Shown in pieces: positions 7,568 to 10,384 of a stretch of DNA of 51,857 nucleotides; position 1 is the first letter of the stretch; the number at the start of each line of letters is the position of its first letter. The stretch spans positions 1 through 51,857 of the forward strand of contig JACDNZ010000014.1 of NCBI GenBank assembly GCA_017656345.1. Direction: 5' to 3'. Both the position numbers and the translations under genes were made by a program. The notes beneath the pieces are model-generated. The model saw only the letters and a list, made by a program, of their open reading frames with translations, made no database searches and was not told the origin of the DNA. Origin of the DNA: Thermosipho sp. (in: thermotogales) (GTDB taxonomy: Bacteria > Thermotogota > Thermotogae > Thermotogales > Fervidobacteriaceae).

Positions 7568-8321
7568 TCTTATATACCTCACTTAAAAAATTGTTTAAAT
7601 CTGATATAAAGCGTTCAAAGTTTTCCAGATATGGGAAATGCCCGGCGTTTTCATACATAACAAGTTTTGATTCTTTAATCAATTCGTTGAATTTCTGACC
7701 TACTATTTTTGGCACAGCTTTGTCTTTTTTGCCCCAGATGAGCAAAGTTTTACAATTAATTTTGGATAGAATGTTTGAGATATCCTCATTTATAACTTTT
7801 TTAAGGATTTCGCGCATTATGTCTTTTGCATTTCTGTAATCTTCTGAGCCGAATTTTTTCTTAAGTTTTTCTAAGTATTTTTCTTTTTGTGGAAATAATG
7901 AGACAATTTTCTTTAAAAATTTATACGTATAAATTTTTAAAAGGGTTTTAAGATCTTTCTTAATTTTTATACCCGGGGATGCTATAATTACAAGACCTCT
8001 AAGCCATTTTGGGTTTTTACTTGCGATTATTGTTGCAATTTTTCCTCCAAAAGAGTGTCCTACAAGTACAGCTTCAGATAGATTGAAACTGTCAATTAAT
8101 TCGTTAATGATTTCAGCATATTCAAAACTATCAATAATTCTATCAGGGATATCGCTTTTCCCGAATCCAGGAAGGTCAATTAGAATTGATCTATAATTGA
8201 TCTGTTTGGCTATTGGGTGAAGTGAATGAAGATTTCCACCCCATCCATGTAGAAAAATAATATTTTTACCCTTTCCAATTACTTCATAATTAATTTTTAA
8301 TCCTCTGATCTCCCTTATCAT
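7560..8321 (-). CDS. alpha/beta hydrolase
   Basis: A 253-residue protein of the alpha/beta hydrolase fold. The oxyanion region is HGWGGN (about 25-30), the nucleophile elbow is GHSFGG (Ser at about 94), the acid is probably the Asp in KKDKAVP (about 200), and the His lies in AGHFPY (about 228). No signal peptide. It overlaps ddl (ATGA, 4 bases) and the MurF-like gene (8 bases), so the three are tightly coupled; a peptidoglycan-related esterase or amidase role is suggested only by this context. Substrate unknown. Confidence 0.85.
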   Translation of the reverse strand: MIREIRGLKINYEVIGKGKNIIFLHGWGGNLHSLHPIAKQINYRSILIDLPGFGKSDIPDRIIDSFEYAEIINELIDSFNLSEAVLVGHSFGGKIATIIASKNPKWLRGLVIIASPGIKIKKDLKTLLKIYTYKFLKKIVSLFPQKEKYLEKLKKKFGSEDYRNAKDIMREILKKVINEDISNILSKINCKTLLIWGKKDKAVPKIVGQKFNELIKESKLVMYENAGHFPYLENFERFISDLNNFLSEVYKNG

Positions 8322-9430
8322 TTACTCACCCTTAAAGAAAGAATGTTTGTGTCAATAGAGTATATTTTATTTTTTTTATCTTTGTGTACTTCCTCGGCTA
8401 TGTTAATCAAATTATCGATAAGTTGTGTAAATGTCAGACCACTTGCCTGCCATAGATAATATGCAAGAGCTCCTGGAATGGAATTAATTTCGTTTACATA
8501 AAGTTCGTCTTTATATAGAAAATCTATTCTAATATTACCATAGCAGTCGAGGCTTTTAAAGGTTTTTTTAGCAGTTTCAATAATTTTTTGGGTTAAATTT
8601 TCATCAATTTCTGCCGGGATTTTATGATTTGAAAATTTTTTACCTTTTGATATATATTTTTCGCTGAAGTCAAAAAGATCATTTTGTTTCACAATTTCTT
8701 CGACAACTGAAACAATAGGATTTTTGTACCCCATTACAGCGCAATTCAATTCTTTTGCATTTTCCAGATATTTTTCTACAAGAATTTTATCATCAAAGGA
8801 AAATGCAACTTCAGCTGCGTCAACAAATTCTTCTTTAGAGTTAACTTTTGTAACTCCTATACTGGAACCAAGTTTTGCAGGTTTTACAATCATTGGATAT
8901 CCAAATTCATTTTCGCAAGTTTTAATAAATTCATTGTTTGACGTAAGCCACTCGGTTTTGCTTATGTATTTAAAATCAATAACTGGTATACCGTGTTCTT
9001 TCAAAATTATTTTTGTAAGTACTTTGTCCATTGTAATAGAGGATGAGATAACACCTGAACCTGTATATGGAATATCAAACATTTCACAAAATCCCTGCAG
9101 AGTTCCATCCTCACCATATGTGCCATGAGTAGTTAAAAAAAATAAATCTACTTTATATGATTTAATACTAGTTTTAATTACAAGGTTTGAATCCTTTTTT
9201 TCAAAATATCTAATTTTTTTTGCTTTTTTTTCTATTAATTTTATATCTTTAAAATTGTTAAGATTTTCAAGAATAGAGCCAGTATACCAGATGCCTTTTT
9301 TATTAATGTAAATTGGTATTACATTATATTTATGTCTGTCAATTGCCTTAAATACTTGATTTGCAGTTATTATTGATATTTCATGTTCGACTGATTTTGA
9401 ACCAAATATTACAGCAATATTTTTTTTCAT
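8318..9430 (-). CDS. ddl: D-alanine--D-alanine ligase
   Basis: A 370-residue ATP-grasp ligase joining two D-Ala molecules for peptidoglycan. Visible signatures are GSKSVEHEIS near the N-terminus, HGTYGEDGTLQG, the ATP-grasp KPAKLGSSIG, and NEINSIPG near the C-terminus. The length matches the longer Ddl group (about 360-370 residues). The omega-loop region keeps a Tyr (SEKYISKGK), which favours D-Ala-D-Ala over D-Ala-D-Lac specificity. The ATG at 9430 follows GGGAGGAA. First gene of a four-gene minus-strand operon with a good extended -10 promoter. Confidence 0.93.
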   Translation of the reverse strand: MKKNIAVIFGSKSVEHEISIITANQVFKAIDRHKYNVIPIYINKKGIWYTGSILENLNNFKDIKLIEKKAKKIRYFEKKDSNLVIKTSIKSYKVDLFFLTTHGTYGEDGTLQGFCEMFDIPYTGSGVISSSITMDKVLTKIILKEHGIPVIDFKYISKTEWLTSNNEFIKTCENEFGYPMIVKPAKLGSSIGVTKVNSKEEFVDAAEVAFSFDDKILVEKYLENAKELNCAVMGYKNPIVSVVEEIVKQNDLFDFSEKYISKGKKFSNHKIPAEIDENLTQKIIETAKKTFKSLDCYGNIRIDFLYKDELYVNEINSIPGALAYYLWQASGLTFTQLIDNLINIAEEVHKDKKNKIYSIDTNILSLRVSK

Positions 9431-9471
9431 GTAATTCCTCCCATAGTTTTTTCATAAGATTATTATAACAT

Positions 9472-9480
9472 CAAATTTTA
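9472..9480 (-). promoter_or_regulatory. extended -10 promoter for ddl operon
   Basis: On the minus strand this reads TGTTATAAT (TG, one base, TATAAT), about 45 bases before the ddl start. No good -35 is visible, as expected for an extended -10. Confidence 0.55.
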
Positions 9481-9576
9481 TTCAAAAATGTATCGGTTTT
9501 TAATTATTAAAATATCTTGTCAGAATCTATATTAGAAGAAATGACATCGAATTTTAACACATTGTTTACTTTGGCA

Positions 9577-9585
9577 TGATATAAT
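9577..9585 (+). promoter_or_regulatory. extended -10 promoter of a candidate small RNA
   Basis: The plus strand reads TGATATAAT. No plus-strand protein gene follows; what follows is a hairpin, a pyrimidine-rich stretch and a strong terminator. Confidence 0.45.
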
Positions 9586-9591
9586 TTTTAT

Positions 9592-9713
9592 AGTAAAATT
9601 AGATTCGATTAGGTTTAGTTGAGAATCTAATTTTGAGTAAATCCACCTCCCTCTTGGGAATAAAATTAATACCTGTAGAAACCCGGGTGAAGCTGTTTCA
9701 CCCGGTTTTTTAT
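9592..9713 (+). ncRNA. candidate small RNA with anti-Shine-Dalgarno segment
   Basis: The segment between the ddl and nucleosidase genes has all the parts of a free-standing RNA: an extended -10 promoter, a perfect 12-bp stem (9595-9606 with 9623-9634) with a 16-base loop, an apparently single-stranded CCACCTCCCTC (9643-9653), and a nine-bp GC-rich hairpin (9683-9705) followed by TTTTTT. The pyrimidine segment is the exact complement of the GGGAGGTGG ribosome binding sites used here, for example at 204-212. I do not recognise it as a named RNA family. The transcript ends are estimates. Confidence 0.4.
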
Positions 9714-9715
9714 TA
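9683..9715 (+). terminator. Rho-independent terminator, plus strand
   Basis: The stem CCGGGTGAA (9683-9691) pairs with TTCACCCGG (9697-9705), followed by T6. The T-run is on the plus strand; read on the minus strand the tail is only GTTTCT, so it could also weakly stop the operon ending at 9731. Confidence 0.85.
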
Positions 9716-9730
9716 TTACATTTTTATATA

Positions 9731-10384
9731 TTATAACAGGTGTTTTTCGAGCATTTCTGCCACAATTGCGGAAGGAAAAGGTGCTAGTTTTTTTAGATTT
9801 CTTTGATATTCTATACGGGTGTTTTCTTTACTTGTATCGATAATTATTTTTAAGGCACAAAATTCAACGTCATTTTCATAGCATACTTTTGCAATTGCCG
9901 CACTATCCATATCTACAACTTCAGCTTTTGTTTCTAAATAAATTTTTTCTTTTTCAGCTTCTGATTCTACAAAAATGTCGCCACTTGCAATAGGTCCAAA
10001 AATAATATTATTGTATACATCATATATACGTTCTAAAAGAGTTTTTGATGGCTTTATTTTTGCCAGTTCTTTATTTCGAGAATGTATATCGTGTTCAATG
10101 TATTCTGTTCCACAAATTATTTCTCCAATTTTTCTTTTTGGATTTAATGCACCTGCCGAGCCGCAGTGAATGAAATATTTAGGATGGAATTTATCAATAA
10201 GTGCTTGAGCCATCATGGCTGCTTCGACTTTACCTATGAAGCCGTACGCTAGGACTACTTCATTTGTTCCAATAAGTCCCCTGGAATACGGCCTTTTAAG
10301 TATTTCACCGTTCTGTAAAATTGGAAGTAATTCCCTAAAGGCCCCCGTTATTTCATCTTTCAAAACACTTGTAATTACAATCAT
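9731..10384 (-). CDS. MTA/SAH nucleosidase-like protein (nucleoside phosphorylase fold)
   Basis: A 217-residue member of the PNP/UDP phosphorylase superfamily closest in pattern to methylthioadenosine / S-adenosylhomocysteine nucleosidase. It has GSAGAL (about 74-79), SGDIFV (about 134) and VDMDSAAIAKVCYEND, followed by KIIIDTS with the expected catalytic Asp. The usual VEMEGAA motif, whose second Glu contacts the ribose, reads VDMDSAA here, so Glu is replaced by Asp. That leaves specificity uncertain. Last gene of the minus-strand operon from 14714; 24 bases after rbgA. Confidence 0.72.
   Translation of the reverse strand: MIVITSVLKDEITGAFRELLPILQNGEILKRPYSRGLIGTNEVVLAYGFIGKVEAAMMAQALIDKFHPKYFIHCGSAGALNPKRKIGEIICGTEYIEHDIHSRNKELAKIKPSKTLLERIYDVYNNIIFGPIASGDIFVESEAEKEKIYLETKAEVVDMDSAAIAKVCYENDVEFCALKIIIDTSKENTRIEYQRNLKKLAPFPSAIVAEMLEKHLL

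Follow-up and report, generated by a model that had tools for sequence, protein, structure and literature searches.

The stretch of DNA analysed here (the window, 51,857 nucleotides) belongs to a 2.12 Mb Thermosipho genome (G000), which was compared with three congeners (G001, G002, and G003), two of which, G002 (JACDOA010000016.1) and G003 (JASKLO010000006.1), are MAGs of Thermosipho sp. The gap under study (9431-9730) lies between two minus-strand genes: ddl, coding for a D-alanine--D-alanine ligase (8318..9430; Pfam PF07478/PF01820), and a gene for an MTN-type nucleosidase of the phosphorylase superfamily (9731..10384; PF01048). The two genes are adjacent in all four genomes of the genus, with synteny kept. 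In agreement with the initial annotation, we found no convincing plus-strand gene in the gap, its sole plus-strand open reading frame being a 57-aa TTG frame that is not conserved. Upstream of ddl, the minus-strand TGTTATAAT (9462..9470), within a block that is nearly invariant in all four congeners, is the probable extended -10 of this gene, so that ddl and a plus-strand small RNA (sRNA) would be transcribed divergently from one gap, with the nucleosidase gene convergent to the latter. Elsewhere in the window, a tRNA gene at 1-51 (Rfam, 39 bits) is cut by the left end.

The initial annotation had proposed an sRNA gene formed by an extended -10, a 12-bp stem, a C-rich segment, and a terminator, all of which are present on the plus strand at the places it gave. 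The extended -10, TGATATAAT (TG-A-TATAAT, 9577..9585), would direct transcription from a predicted start at ~9592. There is no good -35 at 17 nt and a simple promoter scan missed this element; for most T. maritima promoters, the mode that carries the most information is the extended -10 (PMC3636130). It is followed by a stem-loop (9595..9634) with a perfect 12-bp stem, the arms of which are AAAATTAGATTC (9595-9606) and GAATCTAATTTT (9623-9634), and a 16-nt loop. When the gap was shuffled 400 times with dinucleotides preserved, the best perfect stem was 7 bp on average and never as long as 12 bp, and the fold of the 124-nt RNA has a z of -5.5. The C-rich segment, CCACCTCCCTC (9643-9653), occurs only once in the window and is part of a 13-nt core, TCCACCTCCCTCT (9642..9654), the complement of the Shine–Dalgarno (SD) sequence AGAGGGAGGTGGA and the predicted pairing region. 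On its 3' side there is an A-rich stretch, GGAATAAA (9657..9664), a possible Hfq contact, and then an intrinsic terminator, CCGGGTGAAGCTGTTTCACCCGG followed by TTTTTT (9683..9711; stem 9683-9705, T-tract 9706-9711). Terminators of this kind are unremarkable in number (1 found against 0.8 expected), yet this one is conserved (see below).

The core is identical in G000, G002, and G003, at a syntenic site and with the same order of elements. In G002 and G003 an extended -10 (TGATATAAT and TGATAAAAT, respectively) stands at the syntenic place upstream of the core, and a CGGGTGA...TCACCCG terminator downstream of it, so that, as judged from sequence, the three genomes have a predicted promoter and a terminator in the same place of the intergenic gap. 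Outside the core and terminator the three gaps have strongly diverged: the three carriers share the same base in only 28% of the upstream columns, against 13/13 in the core. No other invariant run in the gap alignment is as long, and one of this length has an expectation of ~2e-5 under independent columns. A G-purine-AATAAA sequence also follows the core in the three carriers, with AATAAA as an invariant 6-nt run. The 12-bp stem, in contrast, is absent from the gaps of G002 and G003, where the predicted RNA would measure about 85-89 nt instead of ~120 nt. Thus, of the two features for which the annotation had expected conservation, the CCTCCC segment is maintained and the stem is not, the latter being a feature of the G000 lineage rather than a defining element of the RNA family. 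The relatives thus lend good support to a putative sRNA gene that has an anti-SD segment conserved in three carriers, though these are too small a set for covariation.

The fourth genome, G001, has a shorter gap that keeps only the terminator (G001:C4:162200-162600), and the core, even with one mismatch allowed, was not found anywhere in this genome. As the homologous terminator is present there without the sRNA, in the carriers it may double as the end of the minus-strand nucleosidase mRNA, and in G001, where it is bidirectional, this is probably its role. In a tree of the proteins encoded by both flanking genes, G001 stands beside G002 and G003, which makes loss of the sRNA in G001 the likelier reading, though not a secure one given the weak support for this position (61%).

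We consider that the best overall explanation, and one that is fairly probable, is a trans-acting sRNA directed at the SD sequences of a restricted number of mRNAs, possibly aided by Hfq. From the extended -10 promoter to the intrinsic terminator, a stand-alone RNA would be produced that presents a conserved and partly unpaired C-rich segment, UCCACCUCCCUCU, which presumably resembles the 3' tail of 16S rRNA. By pairing with GGGAGGTGG(A/G) SD sequences of a few mRNAs, this segment would keep the ribosome off and so repress their translation. The annotation had described the segment as single-stranded, which holds in part: UCCACCU is free, but a predicted 4-bp hairpin can form between CCCU and GGGA. 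In the predicted folds of the three carriers the mean unpaired probability of the core is 0.39-0.68 at 37 °C and 0.57-0.71 at 70 °C, and in the two short forms (G002 and G003) the core is less paired at 70 °C. An Hfq gene is found in all four congeners (PF17209, above cut-off), and the sRNA may act on Hfq, its U-rich tail and A-rich stretch being suggestive at most.

The gene order admits another reading, in which the effect is exerted in cis, either by a plus-strand RNA antisense to the intercistronic portion of a nucleosidase–ddl transcript, or by a promoter and terminator that insulate both genes. In a related genus (g4) ddl and the nucleosidase gene are nearly adjacent, being 22 bp apart in one genome (G016), so they may once have formed an operon; the RNA would be wholly antisense to any nucleosidase–ddl read-through, and G001, with no sRNA, has the terminator too. 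However, the conserved extended -10 just upstream of ddl suggests that this gene has its own promoter, and an effect in cis makes no demand on sequence, yet the C-rich 13-mer has been kept unchanged in an overlap that has mostly diverged, which leaves this an unlikely reading.

The proposed trans-acting sRNA has functional counterparts in several phyla. In Campylobacter jejuni, CJnc230 is also a stand-alone sRNA with a conserved potential anti-SD sequence; it has 98 nt, this sequence lying in a single-stranded stretch of 12 nt between two stem-loops, and it acts on genes of a surface appendage (the flagellum), the candidate targets in Thermosipho including a pilin (see below). It differs in having a CCUU motif, in its RpoN dependence, and in being encoded downstream of flgE, in a member of the Campylobacterota (PMC11187230). 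SisA-D of Caulobacter crescentus share a 10-mer anti-SD signature and are presumed to act on Hfq in repressing many mRNAs, but they are four siblings with a sponge partner (PMC12559287), whereas the Thermosipho sRNA is present in one copy and in a different phylum. The alphaproteobacterial alpha-r14/NfeR1 (Cuckoo RNAs) are similar in that an ultraconserved anti-SD motif, CCUCCUCCC, which is unpaired in their case, stands beside diverging stems, although they have three hairpins with the motif in each (PMC10746234), in contrast to a single core outside a hairpin loop. The streptococcal csRNAs (87-151 nt) likewise carry conserved sequences complementary to ribosome binding sites (RBSs), but are controlled by CiaR and found in several copies per genome, in the Bacillota (PMC8186281). 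In Bacillus subtilis, RoxS and FsrA also contact their mRNA targets through C-rich regions, of which they have several, and serve iron and redox control (PMC8216469). The Thermosipho sRNA has no Rfam match: in a covariance-model search no family reaches its gathering cut-off, the sub-threshold scores including the trpB motif (27.2 of 59 bits), SorX (15.2 of 46.6), and anti-hemB (11.6 of 49.5). As it would work like the sRNAs described above while matching no Rfam family in sequence, it is to be placed in the anti-SD functional class and not in any named family.

Sponge partners of C-rich sRNAs are also known, such as RosA for RoxS and FsrA (PMC8216469), and the RNA could instead be a decoy or sponge, its core engaging a protein or some other G-rich RNA, or titrating Hfq, and not the RBSs of mRNAs. 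The three RNAs differ outside the core, and only a short contact is therefore conserved. Nonetheless, the 13-mer matches RBSs at the right distance from the start codon in three genomes, and we regard a sponge as improbable.

The literature search retrieved no earlier report on small RNAs of Thermosipho itself, and in T. maritima only 12-13 putative non-coding RNAs were reported, with no definable structure (PMC3636130). If true, a conserved anti-SD sRNA would point to regulation by RNA, possibly with Hfq and directed at the envelope, in an early-branching phylum of heat-loving bacteria in which SD pairing is unusually strong, and the sister species with and without it would offer a natural presence/absence comparison.

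As regards its distribution, TCCACCTCCCTC is found in exactly one copy in each of G000, G002, and G003, and nowhere else in 20 genomes of the family. The covariance search suggested in the annotation was run against these 20 genomes with a model of the core and terminator; it retrieved the three carrier loci as the only real matches. Weaker matches, where inspected, turned out to be ordinary terminators, the ends of tRNAs, or stretches of coding sequence, and on the minus strand of the locus the model picks up the carriers' own terminators in reverse. The 16 other genomes of the family yielded no homologue, 103 Thermotogota genomes no further copy of the sRNA, and plasmids and viral contigs no match. 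When the whole region was searched against the DNA of the genus, one match fell outside the window, a chance match in coding sequence. The sRNA is thus confined to Thermosipho among the genomes searched, and an analogous RNA of different sequence may exist elsewhere. Matches to the core with one mismatch in the family are mostly RBS complements, coding sequence, or an element resembling a TPP riboswitch. In several genomes, matches to TCCACCTTCCTC fall within a conserved CCCTCCGCCGG...CAGGTTC...GGGTCGAAGG element, which on the opposite strand resembles a TPP riboswitch.

These searches also bear on whether there is an RNA gene at all, since the C-rich block could simply be complementary to an RBS on the minus strand, or a DNA site to which a protein binds, next to an ordinary terminator active in both directions. 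Six other exact 13-mers were found in the 103 Thermotogota genomes, and the four inspected adjoin starts of minus-strand genes, have no sRNA context, and look like RBS complements; moreover, the terminator alone persists in G001. At the Thermosipho locus, however, none of the three carriers has a minus-strand start codon at a suitable distance, and the block always lies ~20-57 nt 3' of an extended -10 and ~30 nt 5' of a terminator, on the plus strand, so we consider this reading quite improbable. A tiny peptide, TTG-(K/E)-STSL-stop, is hardly credible: G002 and G003 both have the frame open, up to stops (TGA and TAA) at the same place, but it has six codons only, a GG directly against the TTG start with no usable SD spacing, and a stop that is not kept in G000, where the frame runs through the terminator.

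The initial annotation had envisaged repression of many mRNAs, and complementarity to RBSs is indeed observed, but the core fits the minority RBS GGGAGGTGG(A/G), and strong candidate targets are few. Its complement, AGAGGGAGGTGGA, exceeds the common AGGAGGTG in length and departs slightly from it, and the latter pairs with the core over a shorter length. Targets were ranked by duplex energy at 70 °C, using each genome's own core, among GGGAGGTG-N2-10-ATG sites only, of which 32 were collected in G000, 18 in G001, and 25 each in G002 and G003. In this ranking of GGGAGGTG...ATG sites the same two genes stand near the top in all three carriers: the best-pairing sites (9-13 bp) include those of a predicted outer-membrane beta-barrel protein and of a type IV pilin (Pfam N_methyl). 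By pairing energy the beta-barrel gene ranks 1st of 30 in G000, 2nd of 24 in G002, and 1st of 25 in G003 (12, 11, and 12 bp), and the pilin gene 2nd, 3rd, and 2nd; within this set of sites, the RBSs of both pair over 11-13 bp, except for the G002 pilin (9 bp). The former codes for a secreted protein of 163-167 aa with no Pfam family, which we take for a beta-barrel from its signal peptide, alternating strands, and mostly aromatic C-terminus. A transaldolase-like gene with a GTG start, missed by the ATG pattern, has an 11-bp match in G000 (G000:C2:32664).

In G001, which lacks the sRNA, the beta-barrel and pilin genes both carry AGGAGGTGG, with weaker pairing (~-10 kcal/mol, against -11 to -14 kcal/mol in the carriers; the pilin value, -9.8, is approximate, since bases upstream of the RBS were filled in and not read). 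The families were chosen for having GGGAGGTG in the carriers, which biases this contrast, and RBSs would be conserved in any case, so that complementarity common to relatives is not independent evidence, and the two genes are to be seen as candidates. The GGGAGGTG:AGGAGGTG ratio is 82:224 in the genomes with the sRNA and 18:83 in G001, a weak excess, and G001 retains two GGGAGGTGG genes of its own. The base before UCC is A in the G000 RNA and G in that of G003, with U and C in the respective targets, a compatible double change that, in a single column, is a hint only. A more speculative reading would be a young, genus-confined sRNA that controls the outer envelope, through the beta-barrel protein and the pilin, by mimicry of the 16S tail, with target RBSs tuned to it, having G opposite a C of the core in the carriers and A in the sister without the sRNA. 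In G002 (C2) and G003 (C4), and not in G000, the beta-barrel gene lies ~25 nt behind a diverged paralogue, and in these pairs the GGGAGGTGG site is confined to the second copy.
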